64,000 nucleotides of DNA from Closterium sp. NIES-65 (lineage: Eukaryota; Streptophyta; Zygnematophyceae; Desmidiales; Closteriaceae): positions 1,116,001 through 1,180,000 of the forward strand of contig CANXME010000213.1 of the NCBI GenBank assembly GCA_948144175.1, given 5' to 3'. Shown one piece after another: positions 17,016 to 39,275 of the stretch. Made by a program: the position numbers and the translations under genes. Below the pieces are notes generated by a model. That model had not been told where the DNA came from. It was given only the letters and a program-made list of their open reading frames with translations, and ran no database searches. The first letter of the stretch is position 1. Every line of letters starts with the position of its first letter.

Positions 17016-17151
17016 TGTGAAATGAGTAAGCAGGAATGAATGAACTATGAATGAAAGCAGTACAAATATGAAACCCTAACTTGGTTGTACCCCCTATGGG
17101 ATACCCCACTACAGCCTACACAGCAGTATAAGCTATAGATATGTTCTGACA
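17016..17151 (-). repeat. 3' LTR of copia E
   Basis: 136 bp, TGTCAGAACATATC...TTTCACA on the minus strand. One difference from the 5' LTR. Confidence 0.93.
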
Positions 17152-17358: not shown

Positions 17359-20300
17359 TCAAGAGGAGAGCAAGTGAGGCAAGACAGGCACAAGACCCAG
17401 CTGGGTGCAGAAGCGCTGATGGTCACAAGGCGCAAGTGCCTTGGTGAACACATCAGCAGTGTTGGCCTCAGAGGCCACGTACGCAAGTCGCAACTGACCA
17501 CGCTGCTGCAGCTCACGAGCAAGGAAGTAGCTGAGAGCAATGTGCTTCGTTCTGTGCTCTAAGCGCTGCTCTCGACACAAGGCCAGCATAGCCTTGTTGT
17601 CTACGTACAGCACTGGAGGAGAACGAGGCGGCTCTCCAAGGTCAGTCAGCAGGTAGGTGAGCCAGCGAAGCTCCTGTGCAGCCATGGCCCCGGCGTAGAT
17701 CTCAGCCTCACAACTGGAGCCGAGAACCGAAGACGAGCGAGTAGACCGCCACGAGACAGAGCCGGAACCAAGGCTGAAGGTGTAACCCTGTGACGACCGC
17801 TGCGTAGCCTGGTCGTCAGCCCAAGACGCGTCCGCGTGGCCGGTAAGGACCACTGGACCCCGCCCTCCAAGCACTAGCCCCATGCCTAACGTACTGCACA
17901 GGTAGCGCAATACCCTCTTCGCTGCAGCCATGTGCTCCGGTCTGTGTCTCCCAGGAGCAACATAGCGTGCAAGAATGCTCAGAGGGTATGCAAGGTCAGG
18001 TCGTGTGCAGGTCATCAGGTACATGAGGCAGCCAACAAGCTCTGCATACGGACCACTCGACTCTACGGACTCATCCGAAGGCAGAGCTGAGAGTGAGTGG
18101 CGAGTAGGCAGAGGAGTGGCCTGAGGCGAGGAGTACGTGAAGCCGAAGCGCTGAAGGACCTGCTGCACCATGTGTGAATGAGTCAAGGTAATGGTGCGGC
18201 GTGCTCTGTCCCGAGTGATCTGCAAGCCAAGGTAGCTGCGCAGTTCACCCAGGTCTGTGCACGTGTGTCTCTTCAGCAGCTCGGACTTCACGTAGGCGAG
18301 TCCAGCAGTGTCCGCTGTGGCAAAGACCAAGTCGTCGACGTACACGAGGATGTAGAACGGCGGCAGGGAAGTGTCGGTGCGAAGAAACAGCGACGGGTCA
18401 GCAGTAGAAGGAGCAAACCCAAAAGCCGCAAGCGTAGTCCTCAGTGTGTCGTGCCACTCACGCGGTGCCTGGCGGAGACCGTAGACTGGCCGTCGGAGGC
18501 TCCACTGGGTGCCAGGAGGGAAAGTCCCAGTGAAGCCAGGTGGACGGCGAAGCCAGATCTCCTCGTGCAGGCTACCCTGCAAGAACGCAGTGCTGAAGTC
18601 GAGAGAGTGAAGCTCGTAGTCGCGCTGAGCGGCTATGTGCAGCAGCACCCGAAGAGTAGTCATCTTCGGGGTGGGAGAGAAGGTCTGAAAGTAGTCAACT
18701 CCCTGCCGCTGACTGAAGCCACGAGCAACGTACCGTGCCTTGAAGACAGGTGGAGAGCCCGGCGGCCGCTTCACCCTGAAGATCCACATGCCACTGACGA
18801 TGTTCGCCCCAGGAGGGGGAACCGCGTCAACGTAGGTGCCTGTGGACTTCCAGGAAGCCATCTCTGCATCCATAGCTGCCTGCCACTGAGAGGAGTAGGG
18901 ACCCTCTACGGCCTCCGCGTAAGAACGCGGAGTCGGGATGTCTAGTGCATCCGGGTCTCCCTCAGGGGCAAGCAGTACAGACGCGAGATGAGGTGAAGCA
19001 GCCGCTAGACACTGTAACTCCTCCTGCCTGTCCTCTAGGACGTCTGTGCCAAGAGCACACTCACCCCCGACGGACGGAGGACAGACAGACGCAGACTCAG
19101 CAACAAGACTAGCAGCGTAGTCGAGACGACAGCGAGCAGCAAAGTCGACGAGCTCAGTGACTAGAGCAGACGCAGCAGTGGACTCAAAAGAGGGGTCACT
19201 GACGACAGTAGCAAGCAGACGCGTGACAGTGGGACTGGCAGCACGAAGAGAGTCCGACTCAGGGTCCGCAAGCGCAGGAAGAGAGGACTCAGGAGGAGAA
19301 GGCAAAGGGGCACGCAGAGGAGCAGTGGACGGACGTAAAGACATCCGGTGCGTGCCAGGGACAGGAGGAGGACGCTGACGCGAACTGCGACCACTAGCGC
19401 GAGCAGCACGAACAGGCGACGCGGGACGAGACGCAGGCTCACGACGCTCAGCAAGACCTCCAGTAGGACCAGTGTAAGGAGAGGGAGCAGGCAGCGGAGA
19501 GGAAGGCTCCAGTAGGGGCTGCGACTGGACAGGCGGTGGACCCTCTACTGGAGGAGAAAGACCAAGAACCTGCTGAAGGAGCGGAACGAAGTACGGCCGA
19601 GGCCGCGCGGCAGCTCCAGACTCAGCAGGGACAGCACCAGCACCCTCAGCGACAGCACCAGCGCCACCCACACCTCCAGCGGCAGGACCAACAGCAGTAG
19701 GCTCAGCACGAACGCCCTCAGCAGCTCCAGCTCCAGGAGGACCTGCAGGGCCAGCAGCTCCGGGACCGGCTGCACCCGCACCCTCGACGGTCGAAGAAGC
19801 TCCAGCTCCAGCTCCAGCAGCAGCACCTCCAGACTCAGCAGCACGCCTCCAGCGGCGAGCGAACCACTCGCGCAGCTCCTGTGGGGAGAGGGGCTCCCGG
19901 CGAGACGCAGCAGCAGGAGAAACCCCAGGCTCAGCAGCTCCAGACGCAGCACCCCCAGGCTCAGCAGCTCCCAGCTCAGCACCCCCAGGCTCAGCAGCTC
20001 CCGACCCAGCACCCCCAGACCCAGCACCTCCAGGCACAGCACCCCCCGGCTCAGCACCCCCAGGCTCCGCACCCTCCGCAGTAGCACCCTCAGGCCCAGC
20101 ACCCCCAGCAGTAGCACCCCCAGGCTCAGCACCCCCGCGCACAGCACCCCCAGAGTCAGCACCCCCAGGCTCAGCACCCGCAGCAGCACCAGAGTCACCA
20201 GTAACCTCGACCGGGTCAACGGCGTCTACCTGGGACACACCTGAGGGGGCAGGAACCTGAGGGGGGAGGGGGTCTACCGGGGGGGGAACCGGCACAAGGA

Positions 20301-23271
20301 AGTCCGGGGGAGGGGGGAGGGAAGGAGTGCGGTAGGGGAAGAGACGGTAGAAGGGGACTGACTCGTCGAACGTGACGTCCTGGGAGGACAGAACGCGACG
20401 AGAGGAGGGGTGGTAAAACTGCCACCCTGGGGCGTCAGTGGGGAAGCCAAGGAAGACACAGGGAGCAGCACGAGGGGACAGCTTGTCCGCAGACAAGTCG
20501 CGGACAAACGCCCGAGATCCCCAGACACGGAACACAGACGCATCGCCAACCTTCCCCGTCCACAGCAAGGCTGGGGACATCGCTGGCCGAGAGACCCGGG
20601 GGTGAAGGTTGAGCTGATGCGCCGCGTACTGAACCGCAAACGGCCACAGAAAATGGGGGGCAGCCGCATGCATCATGGACGTACGAGCGACATCCATGAC
20701 CATGCCAATGCGGCGCTCAGCAATCCCATTTTGCTGTGGTGAGTCCGGAAGCGTGAAGGTCTGGCGGATCCCCCGTGCACGACAGTAGTCTCGCAGAAGG
20801 CGAGAAGAGAACTCTCCGCCTCTGTCAGAGTGCAGACGCAGAACAGGAAAGTCCGAGCCGAAGCTCTTCCTGAGCTGGAGACGAGCCTCGCGGATCCAGT
20901 CGATCAGCACCTCAGTGACCGCACCCTTGCTGCGCAAGGGGAGGACTGTGGTGTAACGCGAGTAGTCGTCAACCACCAACAGGAAGTAGCGCTCGTAACC
21001 CTGCCCACGGATGGGGGCTGGGCCCCACACATCCATGTGAAGCGTCTGCAGGGGAGCCTCTGTCGGGGGGAAGTGGGAGGAGTGAGGAGTAGCCCGGAGG
21101 CGACCCTCGACACAGGGGACACAGGAAGGTCCTGGCCCGGAGGGGAGAGGAGGGAGAGACTGGGGAAGACCAGAGACAAGGACACGGGAAGCCATGCTCC
21201 GAAGACGGGGCAAGGAGGGGTGGCCAAGACGGTGGTGCCACAGGAGAGTCTCGTGAGACAGGAGGCGACAAGAACAGGGGGCAGACTCAGGACCTGACCG
21301 GGACGAAGCAGCAAGTACCTGACCCGACGCAGCCACCTGACCAGACGCAGGGACAGGAGGAGACTCAACGGTCAGGGTGTAGAGACTCGACCCCGGCCGA
21401 CGTGAGAACGTGGCCAGGTGTCGGCCTGTGCGAGCCTCCGTGCAGTGGGTCACCCTCTGACGCGCAGGAGTGAACTGGTGAACACCCCCATCCTGCAGGT
21501 CCGCTCCACTCACCAAGTTCGTAGAGAACGAGGGAAGGTACAGATCCGACAGGGTGCCCGAAGGGGCAGCCGGACACGGGAGGACAGTGGAGAAGTGAGA
21601 CAGGACAGGACCCCCAGAGGGGTCAGCAAGGGAGACCGCAACCGGCCTGGCGAGCGGCGAAAGGGTAGTGCGGTCTCGAAAGAAGGAGCGAGAAGCTCCG
21701 GAGTCAAGTGTGAAAGTGAGGGAGGACGAGGACGACTCAGTACCTGAGAGCGCAGTCTCACCAGTACCTGAGAGCGCAGACGCACTGGCACCTAGAGCAG
21801 CAGCCTCACAAGCACCTAGCGCAGCAGTACCAATGCCCGGGTCGGGCTGAAAACACCGGTAACCCTCATTCTCCTCACTATAATCCACAACATACATAGC
21901 AGTAAGGATAGCATCAAAATCAAGATCAAAGATCGCTACACCAGCCCTGAGAAGCTCATCCCAGCGAGGGATCTCACTAGCCCCAGGGAACTGCTGACGC
22001 CAAGCGTCCGTCAGGCGGCCAAAGCAGCGCTGGGTGGCGTGGGCACCCCCACACTGCTCACCCGCGCGGTCGCCGGAACGAAGAACGTAGGTGCAGGGAC
22101 CAGTACCCCCACCCCTCTGACGCCCAGCGTACCACTCACGAAGCTGCTGAGGCGAAGGGATGTCCCGCGAGCGCTGCTGCTGCTGCTGCCGGTGCGAGCG
22201 CTGGCCACCACCACCGCCGCTACGCTGCTGGGTACCACCCCGACCAGCTCCACCTCCTCCACCACTACTGCCTCCTCCGCTGCCGCCTCCACTGCCTCCA
22301 ACTCCGCCGCCTCCACCTCCGCCGCTGCCTCCACCACCACCGCTGGCACCACCACCACCGTCTCCGCCGCTGCTGCCGCCACCACCACCACCACCCCCGC
22401 CACTAGCCCCGCCGCCACCCCCACTCCCTCCGCCGCCACCGCCGCCACCGCCACCGCCCCCTCCAGCTCCACCCGCGCCCTTGCCCCCCTTGCCCTTGCT
22501 GGAGCGACGTCTCCCACTAGGGGCAGACGCCGCGCCGACCGACTCAAGACCAAGCAGGTCGGCAGCAGCAGCAGAGGCAACAGAGGGCAGCAAGGGGGAA
22601 GGAGAGCACCCCTCAAAGATGGGGGTGCGAGGGTCACCACGAGAAGCACCTACAGCGACTATGCTCTTCTCCGCTGCAAGGAGGGCCTTCTCGAGGAGGT
22701 CGACGGTGAGAGTGGTGGGACAGACTGCGAGAAAGTGGTCCCTGACGACGCGAAGGGAGTCAGGGAGGCGTGCGACTACGTAGTAGAGAGCGATGTACAT
22801 GGGGGGGGGGTTCTTAGCGCAGAACTCAGCAGGAAGGGCGGCGCGGTAGCGAGTGTCACTAGTGCGGAGGTGCGTAATGAGGTCAGCGACAGTGGGAAAG
22901 GCAGAGAGGTCAGGAAAGAGGTAGGGAAGCATGAGACGGCTCAGTGCAGCAGTGGCAGGGGAGGAGTAGCGCGCAACTACAGCGTCGTACAAGGTCTGAG
23001 CACTCTTGTACTGACTAAAGTGCGCACGCTCAGAGGTAGGGAGGTGGCGACGCACAGCAAGACGTGCAGCAGCATCGCGGGTGGCCCACTTAGAGCGGAC
23101 AGCGGGATCAGCATCAGCAGCAGGAGCAGGAGAGGCGCCAGAGGTGAGGTCAAAGAGAGAAAGGTTGTCAGCCCTGTCGCACTGTAAGAACAGCTGCAGG
23201 TCGTCTAACCAGACCTCAAAATCAATGGCGCGACCCTCAGCGTCAAAAGCTAGGACACTAGGGGTAGCCAT
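17359..23271 (-). CDS. Copia E gag-pol polyprotein
   Basis: About 1970 residues in a single frame. The start MATPSVLAFDAEG at 23271 was chosen because the sibling elements begin at the same ATG; an in-frame ATG eight codons earlier exists. Parts: gag about 1-260, poly-Gly/Ser linker about 265-365, PQQLREWYA motif then zinc knuckle C-X13-C-X3-H-X4-C near 400, and protease LDSGAS near 520. GAG-pre-integrase HHRLGHPS is near 680, and the integrase core near 745-850 has VVDDYSRY, HSDRGGEF and QQNGIAERR. An IN-RT spacer follows with EPGGA-type repeats and a second motif PQELREWFA. RT is about 1465-1720 (YVDDLVFA) and RNase H about 1810-1960. A single gag-pol frame without frameshift is common in copia. 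The GC-rich third positions match the siblings. Confidence 0.93.
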   Translation of the reverse strand: MATPSVLAFDAEGRAIDFEVWLDDLQLFLQCDRADNLSLFDLTSGASPAPAADADPAVRSKWATRDAAARLAVRRHLPTSERAHFSQYKSAQTLYDAVVARYSSPATAALSRLMLPYLFPDLSAFPTVADLITHLRTSDTRYRAALPAEFCAKNPPPMYIALYYVVARLPDSLRVVRDHFLAVCPTTLTVDLLEKALLAAEKSIVAVGASRGDPRTPIFEGCSPSPLLPSVASAAAADLLGLESVGAASAPSGRRRSSKGKGGKGAGGAGGGGGGGGGGGGGSGGGGGASGGGGGGGGGSSGGDGGGGASGGGGGSGGGGGGGVGGSGGGSGGGSSGGGGGAGRGGTQQRSGGGGGQRSHRQQQQQRSRDIPSPQQLREWYAGRQRGGGTGPCTYVLRSGDRAGEQCGGAHATQRCFGRLTDAWRQQFPGASEIPRWDELLRAGVAIFDLDFDAILTAMYVVDYSEENEGYRCFQPDPGIGTAALGACEAAALGASASALSGTGETALSGTESSSSSLTFTLDSGASRSFFRDRTTLSPLARPVAVSLADPSGGPVLSHFSTVLPCPAAPSGTLSDLYLPSFSTNLVSGADLQDGGVHQFTPARQRVTHCTEARTGRHLATFSRRPGSSLYTLTVESPPVPASGQVAASGQVLAASSRSGPESAPCSCRLLSHETLLWHHRLGHPSLPRLRSMASRVLVSGLPQSLPPLPSGPGPSCVPCVEGRLRATPHSSHFPPTEAPLQTLHMDVWGPAPIRGQGYERYFLLVVDDYSRYTTVLPLRSKGAVTEVLIDWIREARLQLRKSFGSDFPVLRLHSDRGGEFSSRLLRDYCRARGIRQTFTLPDSPQQNGIAERRIGMVMDVARTSMMHAAAPHFLWPFAVQYAAHQLNLHPRVSRPAMSPALLWTGKVGDASVFRVWGSRAFVRDLSADKLSPRAAPCVFLGFPTDAPGWQFYHPSSRRVLSSQDVTFDESVPFYRLFPYRTPSLPPPPDFLVPVPPPVDPLPPQVPAPSGVSQVDAVDPVEVTGDSGAAAGAEPGGADSGGAVRGGAEPGGATAGGAGPEGATAEGAEPGGAEPGGAVPGGAGSGGAGSGAAEPGGAELGAAEPGGAASGAAEPGVSPAAASRREPLSPQELREWFARRWRRAAESGGAAAGAGAGASSTVEGAGAAGPGAAGPAGPPGAGAAEGVRAEPTAVGPAAGGVGGAGAVAEGAGAVPAESGAAARPRPYFVPLLQQVLGLSPPVEGPPPVQSQPLLEPSSPLPAPSPYTGPTGGLAERREPASRPASPVRAARASGRSSRQRPPPVPGTHRMSLRPSTAPLRAPLPSPPESSLPALADPESDSLRAASPTVTRLLATVVSDPSFESTAASALVTELVDFAARCRLDYAASLVAESASVCPPSVGGECALGTDVLEDRQEELQCLAAASPHLASVLLAPEGDPDALDIPTPRSYAEAVEGPYSSQWQAAMDAEMASWKSTGTYVDAVPPPGANIVSGMWIFRVKRPPGSPPVFKARYVARGFSQRQGVDYFQTFSPTPKMTTLRVLLHIAAQRDYELHSLDFSTAFLQGSLHEEIWLRRPPGFTGTFPPGTQWSLRRPVYGLRQAPREWHDTLRTTLAAFGFAPSTADPSLFLRTDTSLPPFYILVYVDDLVFATADTAGLAYVKSELLKRHTCTDLGELRSYLGLQITRDRARRTITLTHSHMVQQVLQRFGFTYSSPQATPLPTRHSLSALPSDESVESSGPYAELVGCLMYLMTCTRPDLAYPLSILARYVAPGRHRPEHMAAAKRVLRYLCSTLGMGLVLGGRGPVVLTGHADASWADDQATQRSSQGYTFSLGSGSVSWRSTRSSSVLGSSCEAEIYAGAMAAQELRWLTYLLTDLGEPPRSPPVLYVDNKAMLALCREQRLEHRTKHIALSYFLARELQQRGQLRLAYVASEANTADVFTKALAPCDHQRFCTQLGLVPVLPHLLSS

Positions 23272-23369
23272 GGCGACGACAGCGACGCAGTGCAAGCAGT
23301 AGGGAAAGAGCTCGCAGTGGCAGTGGGACTGTGCTCACCAGGCAGGGCAGGTCGAGTAGGTATGCAGAA

Positions 23370-24539: not shown

Positions 24540-26210
24540 GAGGTAGAACGACCCAGTTACCACTACTTCACACTGTGCAGCTCCCCGTCGTCCAGTCGAT
24601 CCGTAGATTGTACCGTCGTAGCCAATCACGTCCCAATAAAATGCCGTGCCCATCCAGTGTCGTCGCGAGCATTTCCTGTGTAAACCCGAAGTTCCCCCCG
24701 CAGCGGACTTTTACGCGCTCCACCTTTTCCCGTATGGCCAGGGGCGTGCCGTCGACTAAGCGTGCATCTATCTCAGGTAAACATCGGTTAAGCGTTAATT
24801 GTAATTTTCGTGCGGTTGCGGTATTAACTAAGCTGTGGCTTGCTCCTCCGTCAATGAAGATCTTCACTGCTGCTCCCTGTATTTTCCCGTAGATCAGTAC
24901 CGGGCAATCCGTCGCTGTACCCTCCTTATTCATCCGAGCCCTATCGATGGCGTGAATCGGTACTGTGACTCGGTGAGGGTCGGTGTGGTTGGGCGAGCAG
25001 GCAGTCTCGTCAGTAGTTGGCCCAACTTCTACTGACTGCTGGCGTTTCCCTGCCTCCGAGACTCCCTCCCCTGCTCTGCTCCCCGACGCCTCAGCTCCTC
25101 TAGACATTCGCTCTTGCGATGGCCCGGCCGGTTGCAAGCAAAGCAGCGCCCTCTAAACGGCGCGGCAGCTGCATTTGCTGCGACGGCATGTACAGTGGCG
25201 TGCTCGGTCGGTCCCCGAGGACGATGTCCGTAATAGGACCCCGGTCTCGGTCGGCGTAGGATATCGATTTTCTCGGCGAGCGCGAGGATCTCGTTGAAAT
25301 TCGAGAGCCCGCGTAGCATTATCTCGTGCGAGATGTCCGGCTTCAGCCCTCCGACGTAACGGTCCACCCGCTCCGCCTCGTGCATGTAGCCGACCTGTTC
25401 GCAAAGTGCGAGAAACCCGCTGGTGTAGTCTTGAACTGACCCGAGCTGGCGCCAAGTGCGCAGTTTCTGACGCGCCGAAATCGAGGCCGCGATCGGCTCA
25501 AAGCGCGCCCGAAGCCCTGCGCACCACGCATCCCACGTGCTGTATTGGGCGGTTTCGCAGAACGAACTCCAGGTAACAGCTGGACCCGAGGGCCCTTCCT
25601 CGTGCGACAGTGGCCTGTAGGCGCGCGGCGACGTCACAATGACTCGCCACCAGTCCATGGCGGGGCCCCTGAGTAGTGAAACCGCATACCGGATCTTGGC
25701 GGCGTCCGACTCGACGTAGTTGGCGTCGAAAAACACATTCATCGTGAAGACCCACGATTGAACTGTCGGGCCGCCGCGTTGGCTTGGGTCGAAGCAGGGC
25801 GGGCGTTGCGGCTTGAGTGGCATTGGGGCCATCATGGCGTTCTCGCCACTTGTCGCCGCAAACTCCACGTGCCGACGGGCTTCTCGGGGCTCCCGTGGGC
25901 TTAATGCGCTCCTGTTCCCTCCCATGCCGGGCATCGGTTGGGCTGCGCCGTCACTGGCTGCGCCTGAGCGCTGTCCCGTGCTGTTGTGTTGCGTTGGTGT
26001 GCCGGATGAGATGACGATGGGCTCCTCCGAATGTGCAGATGCATTGGTTGGTGCGTGTGATGGCGTCGGTACGTTCACCGTTGACGGGCGGAGTCACGTT
26101 CCGCCGTGAGAGTCGCGATTTCGAGCGCCGAATCCTCCAATTGACGCACGAGACGATCGAGTTGCTCCTGCGTCAACGTGGCGAGATTGAAATCGGCCAT
26201 GGCGGGGGGT
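24540..26210 (-). CDS. Gypsy D gag and protease region
   Basis: The minus strand encodes a gypsy gag (capsid-like stretch with VQSWVFTMNVFFDA and LRTWRQLGSVQDYTSGFLALCEQ). A CCHC zinc knuckle CFACNRPGHRKSEC follows near 25.13 kb. Then comes an aspartic protease (KIFIDGGASHSLVNTATA near 24.85 kb, followed by ILLGRDWL). An MADFNLATLTQEQLDRL-type N terminus near 26.2 kb may be the true gag start. Gag and protease lie in overlapping frames, which in this group can be joined by programmed frameshift (family knowledge). The downstream pol is displaced by copia E. Confidence 0.8.
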
Positions 26211-26383
26211 GTCGGGCAAGCTAAGCGAGAGCCTCGGTCGTGGCCGTGCGTGCTTTCGAGAGAGCACTACGAGCGGCAGTGCTGTGTCGCTGAGAGACGT
26301 CTACCCCCCCCCAAAAAATTGAGATAGTGGGAAGCGAAGGTGTGGATGCGGTCCGAGATGAGATCGTAGGCTCTGATACCAAG

Positions 26384-26715
26384 TGTTACGAGTGCAATTG
26401 AGTGAACGAACGAGAATTGCACTATCGAAGCAAGAATACAATTGAGCGAAGGCATGAGCGAACATTATATAGCGAAACTATAGTGGTAATGGTAATGGTC
26501 GCGCGACGAGCCTGGGACTGAGGTTGGGAAAGTGTCGAAGCGTAGGCCCGGAGCGCGGGTTACCAGCCGAGCCGTGAGGTCGGGATGCGATGTGCGAAAA
26601 GGGCGGGATGATGAATGATGCGATGGTCGTGAGTGGTAACGGTGCTGACTGAGGTGCTACAGTGATGTACGCGTTGAGCAGGGACGCGAAGTAAGGAAAA
26701 GGGAATTTCCTTAGA
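26384..26715 (-). repeat. 5' LTR of gypsy D
   Basis: 332 bp, with TATA-like TATATAA at 26465-26471 (minus). Its outer terminus is followed by GTACT (26716-26720), pairing with 13689-13693. Confidence 0.92.
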
Positions 26716-26773
26716 GTACTCGTTTGACACCTTAGTGCAATTCTAGCTACTTAGATTCATTGCACCCGTAACA
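26716..26773 (+). repeat. End of the 3' LTR of gypsy C (right copy of GTACT, then 53 bp)
   Basis: Starts with the duplicated GTACT of D and continues to the LTR end ...GCACCCGTAACA at 26773. The last base of the left retroelement nest is therefore 26773. The 5-bp host duplication of C would be GGAAC (26774-26778), its partner being off-window. Confidence 0.85.
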
Positions 26774-27888
26774 GGAACACATGTTTTTGTGCCTTTCCAG
26801 CAGGCTCGACTCGGCCCACCAACCTTGGTGCTGCTGTTCGCAGCGGCAAAGAAAAGCTAGCATACATCTCCCCTTCCCTTCCCCTTCTCCCCTCCCAATT
26901 TCACCGCAAACCTATTTCCCGCGCGCGCGGCCCCTCAGCCCACCACGTCCTCCCCCCTCTCCGTTCCGCCACCCAAATTTCTTGCGCTACAGTTCCATTC
27001 CGCCACGACCCAAGCGCATTCGCTCCCCCTCCTCCGCTCCACCTCCCCCACTCCCCTTCCCCCCGCTACACCTCAGTGGACCAATCAGCCCATCATGCTG
27101 CCGCATCCATGGCAGCCATGGCGACTTTTTTCACCCACATCATGTCATGTGCACGCCCTCCAGTCCAGTATCTCCACCCACCCCACCCACCTCTGCTCCG
27201 CGCCCTGTTGCATGAGCAAGTTCAACCTTGACTACCTCCCTAATTACTCTGTTCCGCCTTTGCAGTGTGTGGCCTTGATTGTCCCAACCACAGGGATCTA
27301 AAAACGTCCCGTCAGTTCTCGTATACGTAGTAAGGGGACTGGCTTTTGCACAAGACGACGTGCAGGTGTGAGCCTGAGGTTGTCGGTCTGGACGTTAACA
27401 GTGCGTTTTTGTGAGTAAAATCAGACGGGCGTAAACACGACCGAGTGCGTGGCCAAGGTCGCAGTAGCCCGCCTCTCCCCGATGCGCGTGCTCCACGAGC
27501 GACGCTCCCAGCAGCTTAGTACCGGCGTCGTCCCAGTTGGCCGTGCAAAGCCGTTTTTTGACCGGGCGAGCCGAATGTGGGCTGGTGCGTTTCGGCATCA
27601 CCGTTAGCCGCTTATCCTCACCGGTTTCCCGCCAATGGCAGTGCGTTAAATCCACCGTGCTTCGTCAGCGCAGCTATATCGCCAGTTCGCGCCCCACATT
27701 GCGCGGCCGGACGTGTGACATGGCTGCCAGCTGGCGTCCACGTCATCATATTCAGACGGTGACGATTCGGGCGTTCTCTGCTGCTGTCTCTGCCTAGTAA
27801 TCCCTTTCCGTTTGTTCCTCTCGTCTCTTGAATTCTCCATTATCCCTGCGTTGCTTAAGGACGAGGAACACGAAGCCGACGAGGGCCG
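26774..27888. other. Host upstream region of the MKP1-type gene
   Basis: About 1.1 kb with no supported gene. A pyrimidine-rich stretch (about 26860-27075) rich in CCCCTTCCC lies upstream. I see no clear TATA box. It presumably contains the promoter and 5' untranslated region of the phosphatase gene. Short frames on both strands here look incidental. Confidence 0.6.
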
Positions 27889-30800
27889 ATGGCGAATGCA
27901 GGCGAGAGTACGATGAAAGAAGGATCGGCTCGTAGATTGACGGAGCGCAGGGATGCCGTAAGCGCAGCTGCTAACGGTATTATCGATGCCCATGCGAAGG
28001 CTTTGGAGACTAGCGAACGCGCCGACGAGTTGGCAAGCGACGGCAGCAACAGCAACGGCAACGGTAACGGTAACAGGAATACCGACGTCGATACCGCAAG
28101 CACCAGCAGCGGCGATAGCGGTATCAAGGGCAAGCCGAGAGAGCACGGGGGAAGGCAATCGGGCGCAGGCCCCGCCTTCCGCCCGAACCAGCAACTCCCC
28201 ATGCCCACGCTCAACCGCGCCCGCTTCGGCCTCCCCGCCATCTGCCTCGATCTCGCCGTGCTCCCCAGCGGCTCCGCCGGCAGCCCCAGCAGCGGCAGCA
28301 AGGCGGCGCACGCCCGCGCGGGCGCGGACGGGCGGTTCGCGCGGAGCGCGAGCAGCGGAAGCAACGCGGAGGAGGAGACGGGGGAGATCGTGGGGACGGA
28401 GGAGGAGCCGATGGACGTGCGCGCGCGCAAGCAAAAGTTCCTCTTCTTCGAGAAGGAGTGCTCGCAGATCATGGCGCACGTGTTCGTGGGCAGCGACGCC
28501 GTGGCGCGCGACAGGGAGATCCTGCGCAAGTCGGGCATCACGCACGTGCTCAACTGCGTGGGGTTCGTGTGCCCCGAGTACTTCCCCGGCGACATCACGT
28601 ACAAGACGCTCTGGCTGCAGGTGTGCCGCCGCCGCCGCCTTGTTGCCTCCTCCGTCCCCCTCCCCCCCTTCCGCCCGATCTGACGGAATGGTTGTTAGAT
28701 TATTTTTCTCTTATTTTATATTATTTCTTATCCTGGCGGGTCGGGGGAGAGGTGAGGTGGGGAGGCAAGTAAGTCACGTTTACTAAGATACGCCAGGCAT
28801 TTCGCTCCGTGTGCAACGTCGATCGTACTGGGTGGGAGCGCAGCTACGTGCGTGTCCCCCAGGATCGAAGCGACGTCACCGCTGCCCCGCTGTCGTGTGG
28901 CAGCGTCACTCTGGCGCGCGCTGCGATCCGCTGCTCCACTGCCATTCCTGCTGCTCTCCCTACTCCCCCCTCGGCCGCTCTCCCCTGTGTCTCCCCCCTC
29001 CATCCGCCCAACTCCCGTCCCCCCATCACAACCCCCCAACGCCGGAAATCATAGGATGCGTGCGACTATCGAATCGACTCGAAAATCCTTCCCCAAATCC
29101 ACCCTTCCCCTCCGCCCCCCTGCGCCCATATCCTCCCCCCAACCAGGACAACACGTCGGACGACATAGGTGCGTGCGACTCTCGAATCGACTCAGAACTC
29201 CCCCATCCCATCCCGCCACCCTCTCCCCTTCGCCCCCATGCGCGCATGTCCATCCCCACCAACCCACCCATCCAGGACAACCCGTCGGTTGACGTCGCGT
29301 GCGTGCTGTGCGACGTGTTCGACTTCATTGGGGCAGTTCGGGCGGGTGAGAGTGCTAGTCATTACACCCGCAAACCTCTCCAACCACCCATCTCCACCCA
29401 TTGCTACTACCTTCATCTTTCCTCCCCCGCCTCCCCTCAGGACAACACGTCGGAGGACATATCGTGTGTGCTGTACGACGTGTTGGACTCAAAACTCCCC
29501 CATGCCCGCATGTACCCTTCCCCCCGCCCCCCTTGCGCCCATGTCCGCACCCTTCCCCACCCCTCCCCCACCTCCCCACAGGACAACACGTCGGAGGACA
29601 TATCGTGCGTGCTGTACGACGTGTTCGACTTCATCGAGGTGGTGCGCGAGGAGGCGGGCCGCGTGTTCGTGCACTGCTGCCAGGGCGTCTCGCGCTCCAC
29701 CTCACTCGTCATCGCATACCTCATGTGGACCGAGGTATGCCGCCTCTGCCCTCCGCTATGCTGCCCTCCCCTGCCATGCCCTGCCATGCCATGCCATGCC
29801 ATGCCATGCCATGCTAATTCACGCGATGCCTCGTGCCACGCCATGAGACGCCGTATCATAGCATGCATGCCATGGCACCTGCCCATCCATCGCATGTCAC
29901 GCCATCGCCATGCGATCCCATGCGCATGCCGCGCGCCATGACACCCTATGTCGCGATGCTTCATGCTGCCACTGCGCCAACTGCTGGAGATGTGCATGGG
30001 TGGAAGGGGAAGTGAATCTAGGGGGGGCGAGGTGATGTGCAAGAGACTGGGGGTATGCACCCGTTCCTAATGGCGAGAGGGTCAAATGATCTCCACCCGT
30101 TCCTAACGCGCGTCCAGCGTGAGATTATGGCATAAGCGTACGCGCGCTGCTGCTGATGCGCCACTGCGCATCTCTTCTAACTGCTCGCCGTCTTGCCCTC
30201 GCCCCCTTTCCGTTCGCGTCCCTCGCCCTTCTTCAAACCCTTCAACTCTCCCTTCTTCCCCCTCCCCGCCCACTTTTTCCCTCCCGTCCAACCCCTTTTT
30301 CCTTCCTCCGCCCTTCCCCTCCGCCTCTCCCCGTCCCCCGTCGTCGCCCTCCACGCGCGCGCTTCGGCGAGCGCAGAAGCGCGGGTTCGAGGACGCGTTC
30401 CGGTTCGTGAAGGCGATCCGCGGCGTGGCGAGCCCCAACATGGGCTTCGCGTGCCAGCTGCTGCAGTGGCAGGAGCGCGTGCTCCCGCCCTCCGCGCTCC
30501 CCCCCGCGCACCAGCCGCTGCTAGACGACGGCCACGACGACGACGCCGCGGGGGGCAGCAGGCAGGACGGGGAGGACAGCCAGGCAGCGAAAGAGGAGCA
30601 AGAGAGGGAGAGGGAACGGGAGAGGGAGAGGGAGCGGGAGCGGGAGAGCGTGGTGCGCGTGTACCGCATGGCACCGCACTCGCCGTACGATGGCGTGCAT
30701 CTGGTGCCCAAGGCCGTGCTGGACGTGGGGCCCCGCTGCCTCGACCCCCGCGGAGCCTTCGTCATCCAGGTATATGCCTCTCCCTCCCCCTCCCTCGTTC

Positions 30801-33248
30801 TCACCCTCTCCCTCTTCTCTTTCTCTTGTCTTTCTTTTGAAGTTCCGCCGTGGCTGCTCGTCTATGTGCCTCTCGTTCTCGCCTGCCACAGCGCCCTCCC
30901 TTTGCCGCCTTGCTCCTCGGGCTCAGCTCAGCCCTCCGCTGTGAACTATCCGTCGCTTGTCAGTCGTCAGCTTTGTCACCACCAAGAGCCTTTTCGGCTT
31001 CCCTTCCCGCCCTCTCTTCCTCCCTTCAAACCCCATCTACCCGCCTGGCATCCCCCCTAATCTCCTCCCCCCGTTCTCCCTGTCTTCCCACTCCGCGCCC
31101 TCCCTCCCTCCACTCTCCTTCCCCTGCCACTCCGCCTGCACTCCTCATTTCCTTCTCCCCCCATCCCCTCCCCTCTCCCCCTCCACCTTTCTATCCCCCT
31201 CCCCTTCCCTTTCCCCTTCCACCTCCCCTTCCCCCATCCCCACGCCCGCGCCCGTTCCGCAGGTGGGGCGCACTGTGTACACGTGGAAGGGAAGCCAGTG
31301 CCACCCGCTCATGGCGGAGCAGGCGGAGCGGGCAGCGCGCCAGCTCGTCACATACGAGGGCCTTTCCCCCCACTCCCCCTCCCCCGTGCTGCAAGGCGCG
31401 GAGCCCGCGCCCCTGCTCTCCGCGCTCCACTCCCACGCCTCCCGCGCTGGCAGGCGGGCGGGCGCGGGCGGCAGCGGGGGCGGCAGCAGCAGCAGTGAGT
31501 GGGCGGCGGTGATAGAGAGAGAGGGGCTCACGTATATGGGGCAGGACGCGCATATGCTCGCGGGCGCAGGGAGCAAGTCTCTTGCTGTCAAACCCACGAT
31601 TCCCAAACTGGCCTCCATCCCTGGGAGTCAGAGCGCTAGGAATAGCAGCAGCAGCGGCAGCAGCGGCAGTTCAAGTAATAGCAGTAGTAGTAGCGGCAGT
31701 AGCGGCAGCAACGGCAGCAGTGGGAGTAGCGGCAGCAGCAGCAGCAGCGGGAGCAGCGGGAGTGGGAGCAGCAGCAGCAGCGGGGATGCAGCGGGGTGGG
31801 CCCCAGTGGCGGAGCAGCAGAGCGAGTACGACTATGACTACGAGTGCTTCCTGCGGGCGCTCGAGGGCGGCACGCCCAAGCCCATCGCGGGCCTCGCTTC
31901 CCCCAACGCCAAGGTGCTGCCGCACCACGGCAGGGGGTGGCTGGGCGCCACGCTCGATGACTGCTGGGCCGCACTCGCTGCAGGGGGAGGGGGAGGGGGA
32001 GGGGGAGGGGGAGGGGGAGGGGGAGGGGGAGGGGGAGGGGTTGGGGAGGGTGAGAGTGGGGGTGGCGGAGACAGCAGTGAGGGTTCCGCCGTTCGTCTGC
32101 ACAGCCGGTCGTTTTCCGTTGGGCACGCCACCCTCCCCTCGCTGTTCCCTGTTCCGCCTGCCTCCGCCTCCGCCTCTGCCGCCTCCGCGTCATCCAAGCC
32201 TTCTAAGCCGGGGGCGTTGTCCCTGGGCGCAGACTCAGGAGGAGGGGGAGGCGCTGCCTCGAGCAAGCTCCTCTTCGCGCCTGTGCTGCGCAAGCCTCTG
32301 CCGTCGCTGCCGTCACCGTCGTCCTTCTCCCCGCGCTCCCTGGGCTTCTTCCCGCCCTCGGGCGTGGGCGCGTACGGGGCTGCGCTGCAGAAGTATAGTC
32401 CCGAGAAGAAGGGCGAGGGGGGCGTTGCGGGTGCTGCTGCAGGGGCAGCAGGCACGTTGGCGGGCAGTGGAGGCAGCAGCAGCAGTAGCGGTAGCAGCAG
32501 CGGGGGCAGCAGCAGTATTAGCAGCAGCAGCAGCAGCAATACCAGCAGCAGCGGTAGTGGTCAAGCGTCGTCTAGGCTGGGGGGCGCAGGGAAGGCTCCT
32601 CGAGGTAGCAGGCTGCAAATGTCCACAGGGGGGCTCGCAGGCTTGCAGGGCACGGGCGGAGCCAGTGGCGCGGGCGATGGGGACGGGGTGGCGGGCGGGC
32701 AGGTGGGCGCGGAAGCGAGAGGCGCGGGGGAAGCGGAGGTGCACGCGCTGGGCGGATCCGCGCTGAGTGACATGAATACCGCCGCAGTGCAGGGGGCGGG
32801 GATGGGGGCGGAGGAAGAGGACGAGAGTTCGGGAAGCGGGGGTGGCGTTGGGAGGGTGTCTAAAGGGGGAGGGGAAGCGGGCAGCTGGATGCTGTCGCCG
32901 CGTGGGCCTAGGAACACGCCCAGCAAGCTGTGGGAGGCGGAGGAGGCAGGGCAGGGTGCAGCAGTGCAGGAGGAGCGGAGAGAGAGGGAGGCGCGGACAC
33001 GGGGAACCCGAGGAGAGGGGTCAGGGACTAGGGAGCGATCAGGTGCAGCGTCTGCTCGGCCGCTCCCTCCCAAGCCTTCGCTTCCCTCTGGCATGGTCCC
33101 TGTAGGCAATGCAGTCCCCTCCGCTGCCTCCTCCTCTGGCGCTTCCCGCGCCACCCTCCCGCCCAAAGGCCGGTCCGCGTCCCCTCTGCGCCCCCCCCCG
33201 CCCCCAGCAAACCACTGGTGGTGCTGCTGCCCCCAGAGGAGGGAGTAG
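27889..33248 (+). CDS. MKP1: MKP1-type dual-specificity MAP kinase phosphatase
   Basis: Coding exons 27889-28620, 29582-29734, 30377-30769 and 31263-33248, all joined in phase 0 at GT-AG introns of 961, 642 and 493 bp; about 1087 residues. Residues 1-185 are low-complexity. The phosphatase domain spans about 185-345 (ITHVLNCVGFVCPEYF, then DNTSEDISCVLYDVFDF). Its active site HCCQGVSRS has the Cys nucleophile near 276 and Arg near 282. A gelsolin-like region follows (RMAPHSPYD, LDPRGAFVIQ, then VGRTVYTWKG across the exon 3/4 join). Land-plant MKP1 has the same DSP plus gelsolin-like layout and dephosphorylates stress MAP kinases in the cytosol. The Ser/Gly-rich tail (about 450-1087) is longer than I recall for land plants. 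The ATG was chosen as the first in a long GC-rich frame. The exact stop is uncertain. Confidence 0.87.
29147..29581 (+). repeat. Three partial copies of exon 2 in MKP1 intron 1
   Basis: The start of exon 2 (GACAACACGTCGGAGGACAT at 29582) is repeated at 29147, 29276 and 29441. Each copy is preceded by a pyrimidine-rich tract and CAG, i.e. an acceptor-like context. Spacings are 129, 165 and 141 bp. The copy at 29276 runs furthest (reads like CVLCDVFDFIGAVRA) and ends at a GGTGAGAG donor-like site at 29346. A still weaker copy of the segment lies near 29050. None reaches the catalytic HCCQGVSRS, which only the exon at 29582 encodes. Confidence 0.85.
29774..29815 (+). repeat. CCATG pentanucleotide repeat in MKP1 intron 2
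   Basis: Tandem CCATG units just after the exon 2 donor (29735), with more scattered CATG-rich sequence to about 29940. Confidence 0.85.
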
Positions 33249-33266
33249 AGGGGTTGGTGTGGGTGG

Positions 33267-33681
33267 GATGGCTGATGGGTTCATGGATGGCGGAGGGTGG
33301 AGGGAGGAAGAGGATGATGAGGACGGGAGTGGGGATGGGGGAGGGAGGAACATGTATGGAGCGCTGCTGACGCCTAGAAGGAAGCCTCCTGTGTCGGCCT
33401 TTGGAAGGGAGAGGGGGGCGCGGAAAGGGAGAGAGGGAGGGGAGGGTGGTGGGAGGAGAGGGCAAGGGGGTTTGGAGGAGGACAAGTGGGGAGGTGATGG
33501 GGGCGAGAAGGGGGTTGGCGGTGGGGGCTTTGGTGGGGAGGATGGTGGGTTTGGTGTGCCTGGGATGGAAGATGACGGGGAGAGTGCGGGGATGGGGAGT
33601 GATGATGAGAGTGGTGGTGGAATGGCGTTTAATCTGCCCACGCCTAGGAGGGGCGGACCACAGATAAAGAAGATGTTTTGA
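33267..33681 (+). other. Possible alternative C-terminal coding stretch of the MKP1-type gene
   Basis: Right after the stop of the main frame, another frame stays open for over 400 bp. It encodes a Gly/Glu/Asp-rich sequence with two TPRR motifs (GALLTPRRKPP and NLPTPRRGGPQ), ending IKKMF at 33681. It resembles the disordered tail upstream in composition. It could be a real 3' exon reached by an unrecognised intron, a separate frame, or chance in GC-rich DNA. No convincing intron was found. Confidence 0.4.
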
Positions 33682-35151
33682 AGGGAGTGGAGCGTTGGAG
33701 AGTCGGGGAAGGGCAGGAACAAAAGAAGACCTCTTTATTTTAATCTTATGTGATGCAGGAGAAGTGTGCGAAGTGCTGCAACGGCGGTAGCAGGCCCGAA
33801 TTAGCTCGTTGCAGTCTGGGTTGGTGCGGTGTGGAGGGGTGGGCGCTTGTTAGAGGTGTTGTTGTGAGCAGTAGAGGGATCAGCAACAGAGAGGTGCTGT
33901 GGTGTTGCACCCACTCTTTGGGACCAGATAGCCATGCAAGTAAGAAAGCGAGAGAGTCCAGGCAACACGAGGAGCCCTGCACGAATGGATGCATATGGAG
34001 CAGAGGGGATGGGGCCGAAATCCACAAGTTGACAAGGGAGACTTGGTCATCTACCGGACGACCCCCAAGGGAGAGCCCGTGGTGGTTGTGCAGAGCAATC
34101 GCTTGGCATGGTAGTTGATTTGTGCAGAGCAATTGCTCGCGAGTCGCGTACGAGTACCTGTAGCTTGGTGTGTACTGCTCGTAGACCTGCTCTGCATGTG
34201 TTTACGGTAGGTATTTATATGGGATTGGTTGGTGTCCTCCTTTAGCTTGTTTGCTAGTATAATAATAGCAGCTTTTTTATTTCAACCGGCTCTGCGTGTG
34301 CCTGCCTGGTGGTTAGTCAGATGAAACCAACGAGGTGTTGCAAAATGAAAATTTTCTAAGCGTTAATCGCTTTCAAATTTGCGTATTGTGAATGCGAAGC
34401 TGACTGTAACGCAATTTCGCGCATCGTCGAAGCGCGGTATTCGCCTTCTCCGAATATATAATGTGGGCTGGGTTGGGGTGATTCTTCCCCCACCCACGTC
34501 TCTCATTTTTACAATCTCTCAAGTTCAATTCCCACCCACCCTCCCCATGCTAGTCATCTTCAGAGAGAAGTAGTTCTTAGACATTTTGGATGTGATAGTA
34601 TATTATTATTATTGCTAGGAACCATTGTACTTGAGCACCATTGTAATGAGAACGATGCCAATTGCTACAGAAGCAAACTTTCTCAATTGACTGGTTTTGT
34701 GCCATTAGAAGGGGGGGGGGGGGGGGGGGGGGGGGGGTCACTATTCTAGCTGCTGGCTTTAAACATCATGACAGACAGTACAGTATGGGTGGAAGATAAT
34801 CCACCACACTGCCCTAGTCATTCCCCTCTGGTAGAGGGGAAGAGGGGGGGGGGGGGAGGGGGGATGTATTTACACTTTTACACTGTCTCATTGTTTATCT
34901 CATGTTATATACAAAACCCCAAATGCCCATCGTACGGCCTGAGCACATGTTGGCTCGTTATCCAATGAAACCATAATGCTCTCACCACCACATTCAGCTA
35001 GTACTCATCATTTTGCTTTGCCGGCCATCTTCACCAGTACCACAGCTCAGTACCTCAGGTAGCAGCAACGCCAGCCACTCATACAGGAACATGCTGTACC
35101 ACATTGCTTCTTCTACCGGTAACGAACGAGCATCCTCTACTCTCACGGCAA
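33682..35151. other. Intergenic region between the convergent 3' ends
   Basis: About 1.5 kb with no supported gene. It presumably holds the 3' untranslated ends of both genes. It contains a run of 27 G (34711-34737) and a second G-rich tract (about 34844-34863). The first 500 bp are unique-looking, and AT content rises after about 34200. Confidence 0.6.
34711..34737 (+). repeat. Homopolymer run of 27 G
   Basis: Uninterrupted G from 34711 to 34737. The length is likely to be assembly- and polymerase-sensitive, and the tract is capable of quadruplex formation. Confidence 0.9.
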
Positions 35152-37926
35152 CTAGGCAGCACCAGGCTTGTTAAGCCCCCGGAGCATCATGGCAGCACGC
35201 ACAACCACCCACTTCTTCTTGCCCTGCAGCACCGGGTACGGCATCATGGGCATCTGCACATCCCCCTGCACCTCCAGCTCCTTCTGAATGAGCGCCGCCC
35301 TCGCCTCCTCTCCCAGCTCCACTCCCTCACTCCTTACACTCCGCACACTCACCCCACTATCCACTGCGGCCACTGCATCAGCTGCTGCTGCGGCTGCGTC
35401 TGCTCCGGTGACCGAATCAAAGGAAGAGGCTGTGAGGTGTGCGAGGTGCGCAGCGCGCTTGCGCACGGACTGCTGCACAAACTCGACAAAGAATTGAGGG
35501 AACCCGGGGATGCGCTCGTACCCAGGCATGTAGTTGATGTCCACCACAAAGTACCTGCATGCAAAACCACAAGAGACGTGCCGGTTGACAACACAACGGA
35601 CAACTCGAGTAGGCCTAGGGCCAGATGACGGTGCAATAAAAATACACACATCTCGTTGTCTTTCTCCAAGAAACACCTAGGAAATGACAAGGACAAAGCA
35701 ACCCTATGCACACAGAACTGCGCTTGGCACAGATTCCTCCTCCCCACCTCTCTAGCCCCTGAGCTGACCTGTCAGCGTGGCCGCCTTGTCTTAGAATGTC
35801 CACGTTGAAAGCATGCAGGCGCAGGTGCTTGCGCAGCGTGAGTCCAAGATCGTGCATGAGGGCGGGCGGGGGGTCGGTGACCCTGGTGTCCTGCAGCTCC
35901 TCCTCGCTCATGTGTACGTTGGAGATGCGGTTGAACTCCACCACGCCCACTCCCTGCGAGCAAACAGATGCCATGCATGCATGCATGCATGCATGCACCA
36001 CACATTGTGCACACAGCAAATGCCATACGGAACCCACAGATGGAAGAATGAGCCTGGCTGTGTGCACTTAGCGATGCTTGTGAAGCGAGGCCAGAGAGGG
36101 TGCGGGGTGCAGGAGATGCACTGAGGATCTCCAAGGACGAGCAAAGCATGCGAGTGAATGAGTGAGAGGGTGGGTGAGTGAGTGAGTGGATGGGTGGGTG
36201 GGTGAGTGATTGCTTGAGTGAAAACCGTTGGCTACTAAGTCAAAGGAACCAGATGAAACGAGTTTTGAGCAAGCAGAAGGCACGGCGGTCCCTCCCACAT
36301 AGGCCGCATTTCCTTCCCTGGAATTAGGGTTCCCACCACCAACCTTGCGCAGGAAGTCCCATTTCCCCGCCTTGGGGCTCGGAACCTCCATGGGCAGCGG
36401 CGCCACGTCAGAATCGTCCGCAGCGGGCGCCCAGAGTTCAGGCGGGGGGATATCAGGCAGGGACTGACGGCGGAAGACCATGATCTTGTCGCCCAGCACG
36501 TAGAGCTTGAAGAGGATGCCGCCGTGGTTCACAAACTCCTGCAGCAGCACGGGCGCCTGCACCTGCAGCAGCGACTGCTCGTCCAGCACGAGCCCCAGTG
36601 TGTGCGAGCTCGTTGTTCCGTTCGCCTCCAGGGGCTTCGCTACCGCCGGCAGGGAGAAACCCGCGTCTGACAGGAGGAGCGGGCGGGGGCGGGGCAGGAG
36701 AGGCAGGGTGAGGTGGGCAGGCGGGGCAGGGGGGGAATGGGCAAGAGGGGCAGGGACAGGCAAGGTGCACAGAATAGCAAGAGCAGTGCAAGGGGGGCGG
36801 GTGCTACTATGGTTCAGTTTCAGCCGTCGTGTCCTTCCTCTCCGCCTTTACAACCGAAGTCTCTCGCGCAACTGCAGTGAACTCAACAGTTTGCTGCTAA
36901 GAATAATGAACGGCGCGGAACCGCCATCATTCCCATGGTGAGCCTGGACCTAGTGTCTCACCCAAGGTGAAAAGACAATCTTAACCCTCGCCTCGCCCCT
37001 CAGTAGAGTTGAGGCACCTCAAAACTAAACACAGTTTTAATCTTCGTTTCGTCTCTCACCTTGTAATATCTTGGCGATGTCCTGGGACGGCGTGCCGCGC
37101 TCGATGATGATCTGATTGGGCACGTGCACCTGCGCGCCGTGCTCGGACGCGTCCACGTGGCTAACGGCCGCGAGCATCTCGCGGCGGTCGTCCAGCTTGT
37201 GCACGTTCTCGTACTCGTCGATCACCACCACCTCCGGGTGCTGCCGCTCGTACGCCCCTAGATTCGCCGCCCACTCCTCGCCCTGAAAGGAACGCGGAGA
37301 AGAGGAAGGGAAGGAGGGAAAGGGGGTAAGAGAGAGGGAGAGAGGAGGAGACGGGAGAGATTTTTGGGGAGAGCGGAGGGGTTGTGGTGGTTCAAGGAAG
37401 AGGGTGGTTGGGGGAGATGGGGGGTGGAATAGTGGGTGCGTAAGAAATCCCATACTTCGGTGTGCCTTACTCTTTCTTGTTTTCACATAAGACGCGGTTA
37501 CATGCAGTCAGCCTTCAAGTTCTTGAATAGTTCTTATGACGGAAATGAACGCAATAGTTCTTTCGAAGCGAACGAACTAGTAGTTCTTCGCATTTGGACA
37601 CAAGAAGCTCGTAAAATGCCGTTGGCGTCCCGAGGAGCGCATGAGTTCTGAGGCGTCTCAAAGCTCGATGTCGTCAGCATAAAGAAGCAGCAAAGGCGAG
37701 ACGATAAAGCAGATCTTACGTCAAGTTTGTGCAGGATCATGTTGAAAGGCCCTTGATCAACCAACGGACGGCTCGGATCAATCTCCACAAATTCGACACC
37801 GCATGTCTGAGCGTGTGCTAGTAGCTCGGGTTGCATGAAACTCGCTATTCTCTTGGGCCGTAGCGCGTATCCCACCATAATTCGCTCGCCCACCACGCCA
37901 TTCCCAGCAGCAATCTCCTCTGTCAT
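35152..37926 (-). CDS. ITPK1: Inositol-tetrakisphosphate 1-kinase (ITPK)
   Basis: Minus-strand coding exons 37926-37720, 37282-37060, 36666-36344, 35953-35769 and 35554-35152, with matching phases at GT-AG introns of 437, 393, 390 and 214 bp; 446 residues. The N terminus VGYALRPKRIASFMQPEL...GPFNMILHKLD is the ITPK inositol-phosphate-binding lobe. VAKPLEANG (about 152-160) and LQEFVNHGGILFKLYVLGD (about 185-203) are the ATP-grasp parts. FNVDILR (300-306) and YFVVDINYMPGY (314-325) supply the likely metal-binding Asp303, Asp318 and Asn320. ITPKs phosphorylate inositol tris/tetrakisphosphates toward InsP6, and some plant forms make InsP7. It is longer than typical plant ITPK1 (roughly 320 residues) because of inserts: one after the SLPD motif and an Ala-rich C-terminal one (about 350-370). 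The paralogue number is not assignable by eye. Confidence 0.9.
35973..35996 (-). repeat. (ATGC)6 in ITPK intron 3 close to the acceptor
   Basis: Six ATGC units ending about 18 bp from the intron 3 acceptor (exon 4 starts at 35953). They occupy the place where a branch point and pyrimidine tract would normally lie. Confidence 0.9.
36150..36215 (-). repeat. Degenerate tetranucleotide repeat in ITPK intron 3
   Basis: GAGT/GGGT-type tetramers in near-tandem across about 65 bp, fully intronic. Confidence 0.8.
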
Positions 37927-39126
37927 TGTAATGCGTATTTTCAGAACCAGCTGATTTTCTCGGGTGTAGGGACAGTGGGTACGCGCTTATTGCGTTTCGA
38001 CGCCTGTGTCCGTGCTCGAGAGAGTGACGGGAAGAAGGATGTGATGCGAGAAATAAGAGCTGTGTTGGAAAGGCTAACTCTCTTGGCAGCTTTGTGGGAA
38101 TGCTCGAGGTTTCCTGCTACAAATTTGGAAAGAAATAGATTACTTATTTGAAAGTTCAGGACATTATATGTACAGTTTGAGCAAATCCCTTGGACAGCCA
38201 AGTGAGTCAGCATGGAAGGTTAGACAGGTCAGTCAAAGCGCAGGGTGATCCCAGAATTCCGTTCATCCAATCCGATCCGACGACGGTGTTGGTAACCTGG
38301 GAACCGTGGAAGGTGGTGCTGACTGCTGTGAAGGTCCTCCTTCCGTTGCTCTCCAAGGCACAGCATGCGTCGGGTCGCGCGGAACCATGCCATAGACTGC
38401 CCGCTTCGCTGTGGTGGAACGATCGAACGGTACGCTTCCTTTGCGGTGCCATGCGGTGTGGGCGAGGGAAAATCTTGCGAAAGAACTGATTCGTTCACGA
38501 CACGACACGACACGACACGACACGACACGACAGGACGACGAATGAAACGGGTGAGCTGAGGTACTGACAGTTCCTGGAAGCAACCCTGTGCCCCCCGGGA
38601 TTTTGATGCACACCTAAATTCTCGGGCTATTTTCAGGTGGATGCAACTTAATCTAGCAACTGCACTCAACTGCATACCATGTTATTGGGCAGGTGTGTAC
38701 ACTTTACGCAGCTTAGAAATGTGTCATCTTAAAATTACACGCCACCCAAGATTCGTTTCAAATCAGCACAAACAGTCGAGAATAGATGCGAGTTCGGATT
38801 ACGCAAAGCAAAATCGGAATGACTGACTCTCGATTCTGCATTTTCTGACGTCACCAGAAGCCATCATTGCATGTTTGCCCAATTTCAACACGATTTTTTG
38901 CTTTGCCCCAATTCTTCTTGAAAAACAAAATGCTAGATCAGCTGTAGTGTTGACGCGGATGACGAACGTTGCGCATGGCAAATCAACATTTTCTTCTTCG
39001 GCGTGCAGAAATTTGGAAATGATATTCCCAAACGTGTGAATGCTGCCCGGCCGAATGCATTTCCTCTACAAAAAATAATGTTCATACGGTACATGTATAT
39101 TCTAATAATTGGAATACCTTAGCTTT
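37927..39126. other. Host upstream region of the ITPK gene
   Basis: About 1.2 kb between the ITPK start codon and the edge of retroelement G. It contains seven CACGA units (38496-38530). No supported gene, no clear TATA box. It should hold the ITPK promoter and 5' untranslated region. Confidence 0.6.
38496..38530 (+). repeat. (CACGA)7 microsatellite
   Basis: Seven perfect CACGA units upstream of ITPK. Confidence 0.92.
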
Positions 39127-39150
39127 TATTATAATCCCAAGTAGGACTTG
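39127..39150 (-). repeat. Outermost 24 bp of the 3' LTR of G, with the ACTTG duplication of F
   Basis: ATAATCCCAAGTAGGACTTG matches the LTR start at 60554 onward. ACTTG at 39146-39150 is the left target duplication of F. This is the first base pair block of the right nest. Confidence 0.85.
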
Positions 39151-39275
39151 TGTCAAACTTATATGCTATAGTCTGTATAGGCTATAGTGGGGTAGACTAT
39201 ATGGGGTACAACATTTCTAGGTTTTCCTACTTGTACCCACCTCTTTCCTAGTTCATTCATTGCTCATTCTTAACA
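39151..39275 (+). repeat. 5' LTR of copia F
   Basis: 125 bp, TGTCAAACTTATATGC...CTTAACA, followed at once by the primer site. Confidence 0.92.

Follow-up and report, generated by a model that had tools for sequence, protein, structure and literature searches.

Partial copies of the intron 1/exon 2 boundary inside intron 1 of a putative MKP1-type phosphatase gene of Closterium sp. NIES-65

The 64,000-nucleotide (nt) stretch of Closterium sp. NIES-65 DNA analysed here (GenBank assembly GCA_948144175.1, contig CANXME010000213.1, positions 1,116,001 to 1,180,000; called the window, to which all coordinates refer) contains a phosphatase gene whose first intron carries several partial copies of the boundary between that intron and exon 2. 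The gene lies on the forward strand. Exon 1 was read as the open frame 27859–28620 with its start codon unfixed; it encodes the N-terminal part of the phosphatase domain, ends in ...TYKTLWLQ and has the donor CAG/GTGTGC. Intron 1 (28621–29581; 961 nt, phase 0, GTGTGC...CCACAG) has its junction supported by a gap-free alignment to solved DUSPs. Exon 2 (29582–29734, 153 nt) opens the second half of the DSP domain, and its translation includes VHCCQGVSRS, the HCxxGxSRS signature of the DSPc catalytic domain. Exon 3 (30377–30769, 393 nt) runs from KRGFEDAF to FVIQ, and exon 4 as read (31263–33248) begins with VGRTVYTWKGSQ and has an uncertain 3′ end. Exon 2 by itself matches Pfam DSPc at 51.7 bits. 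When position 28620 is joined to 29582, the spliced piece gives a single DSPc stretch of 131 residues (15–145) at 104 bits, and the structures of DUSP2, DUSP4 and DUSP1 align with the spliced product without a gap at the junction (three alignments). Because the spliced DSPc domain is one stretch and the DUSP alignments are gap-free, 29582 is the main acceptor predicted by homology.

We tentatively take the gene to be a plant-type MKP1, from the likeness of its exon 2–4 sequence. Plant MKP1 has a gelsolin-like segment in its C-terminal part; no gelsolin match was found in Pfam up to an E value of 0.1 for exon 3, exon 4 or the open reading frame (ORF) 33106–33681, and exon 4 had no Pfam match of any kind at that limit. 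A run of nine C (33191–33199) precedes the end of the exon 4 frame at 33248, and a second frame is open to 33681, where it ends in FNLPTPRRGGPQIKKMF; the change of frame between 33190 and 33681 may stem from an intron that escaped recognition, from an indel or from an error in sequencing the C run. Near its start, intron 2 contains a TGCCA microsatellite of 8.6 copies (29772–29814). A scan of exon 2 against IMG/VR gave 17 pattern matches, none of them confirmed.

Within intron 1 we recognised three clear copies of the exon 2 start (c1, c2 and c3, numbered in the 5′ to 3′ direction) and one decayed copy (c0), all on the forward strand. The first clear copy, c1 (29147–29168), follows ...AACCAG and ends at a donor-like TAG/GTGCGT (29168/29169), giving a potential cassette of 22 nt. 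The second, c2 (29276–29345), follows ...CATCCAG and precedes a donor-like GTGAGA, so that the 70-nt potential cassette with a donor-like end reported in the preliminary description is indeed present. The third, c3 (29441–29489), follows ...CCCCTCAG, and no donor was seen after it by eye. Each of these copies has its own pyrimidine-rich tract and CAG. The decayed copy, c0 (CATAGGATGCGTGCGACTATCGAATCGACTC, about 29050–29080), has no CAG acceptor; it is placed by an ungapped match of 74% identity between 29057–29113 and 29170–29226 (in and after c1), and it has the piece TGCGTGCGACT.TCGAATCGACTC in common with c1.

The preliminary description had located the first bases of exon 2 at 29147, 29276, 29441 and 29582. 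For the core of the boundary this is exact, since CAG/GACAAC directly precedes or opens all four positions; over a longer stretch the match is loose for c1 and c2. Thus the boundary CAG followed by GACAACACGTCGGAGGACAT recurs exactly at 29441, with one mismatch at 29147 and in more diverged form at 29276. Similarly, exact matches to CAGGACAACACGTCGGAGGACAT lie at 29438 and 29579, and a match with a single mismatch lies at 29144; at c2 it was not found under a limit of three mismatches, and by eye the 20-mer there differs at four positions from that of the preliminary description. Over the exon-homologous stretch, differences from exon 2 amount to 1 of 21 nt in c1, 13 of 66 nt in c2 and 2 of 49 nt in c3. 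The similarity of c3 extends across the boundary into the intron, where a 69-nt block (29421–29489) matches 29562–29630 at 94% identity.

Self-alignment of intron 1 plus exon 2, which the preliminary description had proposed and which we ran as self-blastn, returned repeats at 107, 101 and 82.4 bits, compared with a maximum of 31 bits among 200 dinucleotide shuffles. As none of 100 shuffled windows contained a match to CAGGACAACACGTCGGAGGACAT either, chance or low complexity was rejected as a source of the repeats. A general tendency of introns in the window to contain copies of their exon edges was ruled out for the five introns tested, three of the phosphatase gene and two, placed by eye, of a neighbouring ITPK-like gene. 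Only one of ten 60-nt exon edges was copied in its own intron, namely the 3′ edge of intron 1, whose copy score of 88 was reached by 0 of 200 shuffles; the scores of the other nine were each reached by at least 77 of 200. A search for local repeat families (at least 26 nt, up to 700 nt) in 26200–39200 gave 14 families, of which four are the intron 1 array; the other local repeats are simple-sequence, G-rich or pyrimidine repeats. An artefact of assembly is unlikely, because the copies have diverged (by ∼ 4–20% in the exon part and 27–29% over whole blocks) and are cut at different points.

Larger blocks of the array also align with one another. The block from c1 through its tail to c2 matches the block from c3 through its tail to exon 2 (202 columns, 73%), and the block from c0 to c1 matches that from c1 to c2 (207 columns, 71%), from which we infer nested tandem duplication. 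The tails after c0, c1 and c3 can be aligned with each other and the tail after c2 scores low with them, in a comparison made without a shuffle control; truncation points differ among the copies. These alignments are consistent with a structural history in which segments of ∼ 110–165 nt straddling the intron 1/exon 2 boundary were duplicated locally and in tandem, in several rounds. The copies are observed directly, and the rounds of duplication are deduced from their alignments; they would have left the intron with three partial copies of intron end plus exon start that can still be recognised and a further one that has decayed. Together with the self-blastn scores and the single copied edge among ten, the block alignments give good support to the earlier proposal of repeated local duplication of an intron/exon boundary. 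We consider it probable that the array consists of relics of such boundary-spanning duplications, which today would be mainly inert intron sequence with leaky use at most.

A feature overlooked in the preliminary description is that all three copy acceptors share the reading frame of exon 2, which is open from each of them into the exon. The successive spacings from c1 to c2, from c2 to c3 and from c3 to exon 2 (129, 165 and 141 nt) are each a multiple of three. Of the three reading frames from c1 to exon 2, that of exon 2 is free of stops, and the other two contain 1 and 3. Because of these spacings and the open frame, splicing to c3, c2 or c1 would add 47, 102 or 145 residues respectively and leave the rest of the protein unchanged. 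The insert would lie between TYKTLWLQ and DNTSED, directly ahead of the Asp that aligns with the DUSP E-D-N motif and that we take to be the general-acid position in the catalytic-acid loop of DUSPs. Use of c3 would thus give an in-frame product in which 47 extra residues break the catalytic domain at the general-acid loop, presumably with loss of activity. If any copy is used, c3 would be the best candidate, because its pyrimidine tract is on a par with that of the true site and it differs from exon 2 at only 2 of 49 nt.

These properties raise the possibility that 29147, 29276, 29441 and 29582 are working alternative acceptors whose isoforms, with 145, 102, 47 and 0 additional residues, tune or disable the phosphatase. 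Besides the open frame shared by the three copies, such a role would fit the CAG that all of them have retained, the pyrimidine content of the c3 tract (19 of 20, with 5 T, compared with 18 of 20, with 2 T, at the true site) and the small drop in the whole-protein DSPc score, from 104 bits to 96.6 bits in the c3 form and 97.9 bits in the c2 form. However, in both of these forms, the two that were scanned, the insert breaks the domain and the best DSPc stretch falls from 131 to 85 residues; c0 has no acceptor, and the open frame is not improbable by chance. In 4000 trials each, its probability was 0.064 when the whole 435 nt were shuffled and 0.28 when only the stretches between copies were, so that selection is not required to explain it. 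We regard working acceptors as unlikely. Quite unlikely, too, is the more specific idea that the acceptors form a ladder in frame register, at 0, 47, 102 and 145 residues, which would switch the phosphatase off by insertion at the catalytic-acid loop rather than by decay of the message.

Several observations nevertheless weigh against the view that the array is a set of mainly inert relics. The c3 block resembles the exon 2 boundary, yet it is flanked by unlike sequence, and simple head-to-tail duplication is insufficient to produce this arrangement without later conversion or deletion; it suggests that c3 underwent later conversion or partial loss. The c1 copy keeps 20 of 21 exon bases although its blocks align at 71–73%, which could reflect constraint or conversion acting on the acceptor core. 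The 13 differences between c2 and exon 2 comprise 7.5 non-synonymous changes in 50.7 sites (0.148) and 5.5 synonymous changes in 15.3 sites (0.359). The resulting ratio of ∼ 0.41, which also speaks for working acceptors, leans slightly to constraint on c2, but it could be due solely to constraint on exon 2. Finally, three spacings that are multiples of three have a chance of 1/27 if independent, and jointly with the open frame the probability is ∼ 0.002–0.01; this combination was noticed after the fact and is suggestive at most. The remaining selection comparisons gave near-equal values for c2 against c3 (0.174 non-synonymous, 0.234 synonymous), leaning slightly to neutrality, one non-synonymous and one synonymous change between c3 and exon 2 (0.026 and 0.098), and one non-synonymous and no synonymous change between c1 and exon 2. 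Because the numbers are small and exon 2 is presumably constrained, the selection figures decide nothing.

The acceptor signals themselves bear on a further suggestion of the preliminary description, that the copies act as decoys. Pyrimidines occupy 16, 15 and 19 of the 20 nt before the AG of c1, c2 and c3, and 18 of 20 at the true site. Because its tract is at least as rich as that of the true site, c3 would be a credible competitor on local sequence, and to this extent decoy acceptors are possible. As pure decoy 3′ splice sites, the copies would bind splicing factors and slow or reduce the removal of intron 1, thereby lowering output without stable alternative mRNAs. The presence of three CAG/GACAAC signals in the 435 nt that precede the true one, together with the c3 tract, agrees with such a role, but nothing sets it apart from inert sequence, and we judge it very unlikely. 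To look for RNA hairpins that might mask acceptors, folding was compared with shuffles at each acceptor region. The c3 region did somewhat better than its shuffles, with a z score of −2.17 (8 of 200 as good), and the regions of the true site, c2 and c1 were no better than shuffles (z = −0.41, 0.62 and 0.79); the 53-nt exon start alone gave −1.23 and the segment 29000–29734 gave −1.47 (2 of 20 shuffles as good). An inverted-repeat search and the folds showed AACACGTCG at the start of exon 2 and CGACGTGTT, 23 nt downstream, to be complementary (29585–29625); this downstream segment could thus pair with c1 and c3 as well as with exon 2.

The preliminary description had also suggested that the 70-nt cassette shifts the frame and could act as a poison exon. 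The frame shift was borne out by computation, and the 22-nt cassette of c1 shifts the frame as well. On this reading c2 (29276–29345) would limit phosphatase output when included, and c1 could do so likewise or jointly with c2. In line with this, a scan of 178 residues of the c2-cassette product, starting inside exon 1, gave no DSPc match at an E value of 0.001, and the same GTGAGA is found at a donor of the neighbouring gene, assigned by eye. Forms in which the c1 cassette is joined to the c2 acceptor, both cassettes are joined to exon 2, or intron 1 is fully retained meet stops 838, 602 and 1447 nt before the last junction respectively, and would be expected to be ordinary targets of nonsense-mediated decay. 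However, with the c2 cassette alone the shifted frame meets no stop in exons 2 and 3 and terminates only at 31496–31498. This position is 233 nt inside exon 4, which is the last coding exon recognised; the c1 cassette joined to exon 2 or to c3 ends at the same stop. Since no known junction lies downstream of this stop, junction-dependent decay is not predicted for c2 alone, although decay might occur through a long 3′ untranslated region or an unseen later intron. The sensitivity of the cassette stop to nonsense-mediated decay thus depends on the uncertain 3′ end of exon 4. The frame shift, the loss of DSPc in the scanned part and the early stops of the composite and retention forms favour the poison-exon proposal, but it is weak for the c2 cassette alone, and as an account of the array it is highly improbable.

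Relics of repeated duplication, the reading we prefer, can be compared with systems described in the literature. In the potato RdRp gene PGSC0003DMG402000361.L a duplication across the intron 1/exon 2 boundary yielded a new intron (PMC4974935). The present array resembles that case in its tandem duplication across an intron/exon boundary with a cryptic donor available. It differs in that the potato case is described as one duplication that gave a new intron. Intron 1 of the phosphatase gene contains three clear copies plus a decayed one, the copies being short and in part diverged, and in the homology-supported gene model the entire array is spliced out within a single old intron. A review treats tandem duplication as an origin of splice signals (PMC3443670), and Lehmann et al. 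(2010, PMC2891723) put it forward for a number of Drosophila introns. As in intron gain at proto-splice sites (PMC2891723, PMC3443670), local duplication supplied ready-made splice signals; unlike the classical model, in which an exonic AGGT is duplicated, an existing acceptor and its flanks were copied and the copies lie within an old intron. Exons Ab and 3 of U2AF1 (PMC5224494), which are duplicated and alternatively spliced, are likewise adjacent splice units of common origin with the potential to compete. In contrast to them, the copies here are partial and lack the catalytic part, and c3 has no visible donor, so that they are unlikely to serve as mutually exclusive substitutes. In Daphnia, significant internal direct repeats were present in 61.1% of the new introns examined and in 16.2% of the established ones (PMC4202315), and repeats within introns are therefore not strange in themselves. 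A review of plant MKPs (PMC6255987) gives alternative splicing for IBR5 and mainly post-translational regulation for MKP1. By titles and abstract openings, the matches listed for MKP1 and for duplicated acceptors, exons or tandem arrays contained no description of such an array. As far as these sources go, the array belongs to a known type of event, with a copy number that exceeds the single duplication in potato. It offers a snapshot of splice-signal multiplication, with one boundary present in several copies at successive states of decay, and a natural test of how the spliceosome handles a row of nearly identical acceptors. Were the in-frame acceptors in use, the gene could by simple means produce regulated phosphatase isoforms whose catalytic domain is interrupted.

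The neighbouring ITPK-like gene lies on the reverse strand at about 36071–37930, with its two introns placed by eye and its extent unsettled; its ORF 36071–36847 matches the inositol 1,3,4-trisphosphate 5/6-kinase ATP-grasp domain (PF05770). An ORF at 9762–10754 matches the C17orf113 probable zinc finger (PF25431). Ty1/copia-type elements or pieces, with RVT_2, rve, gag_pre-integrs and Retrotran_gag_2 matches, occupy 179–4442, 17362–23334, 41365–45717, 47329–52079, 56336–59707 and 61792–63999. A Ty3-type polyprotein with reverse transcriptase, RNase H, integrase and chromodomain lies on the reverse strand at 14056–17115, and a separate gag-like ORF at 25032–26093. Sizeable minisatellites occur in or near several of the Ty1/copia-type elements.
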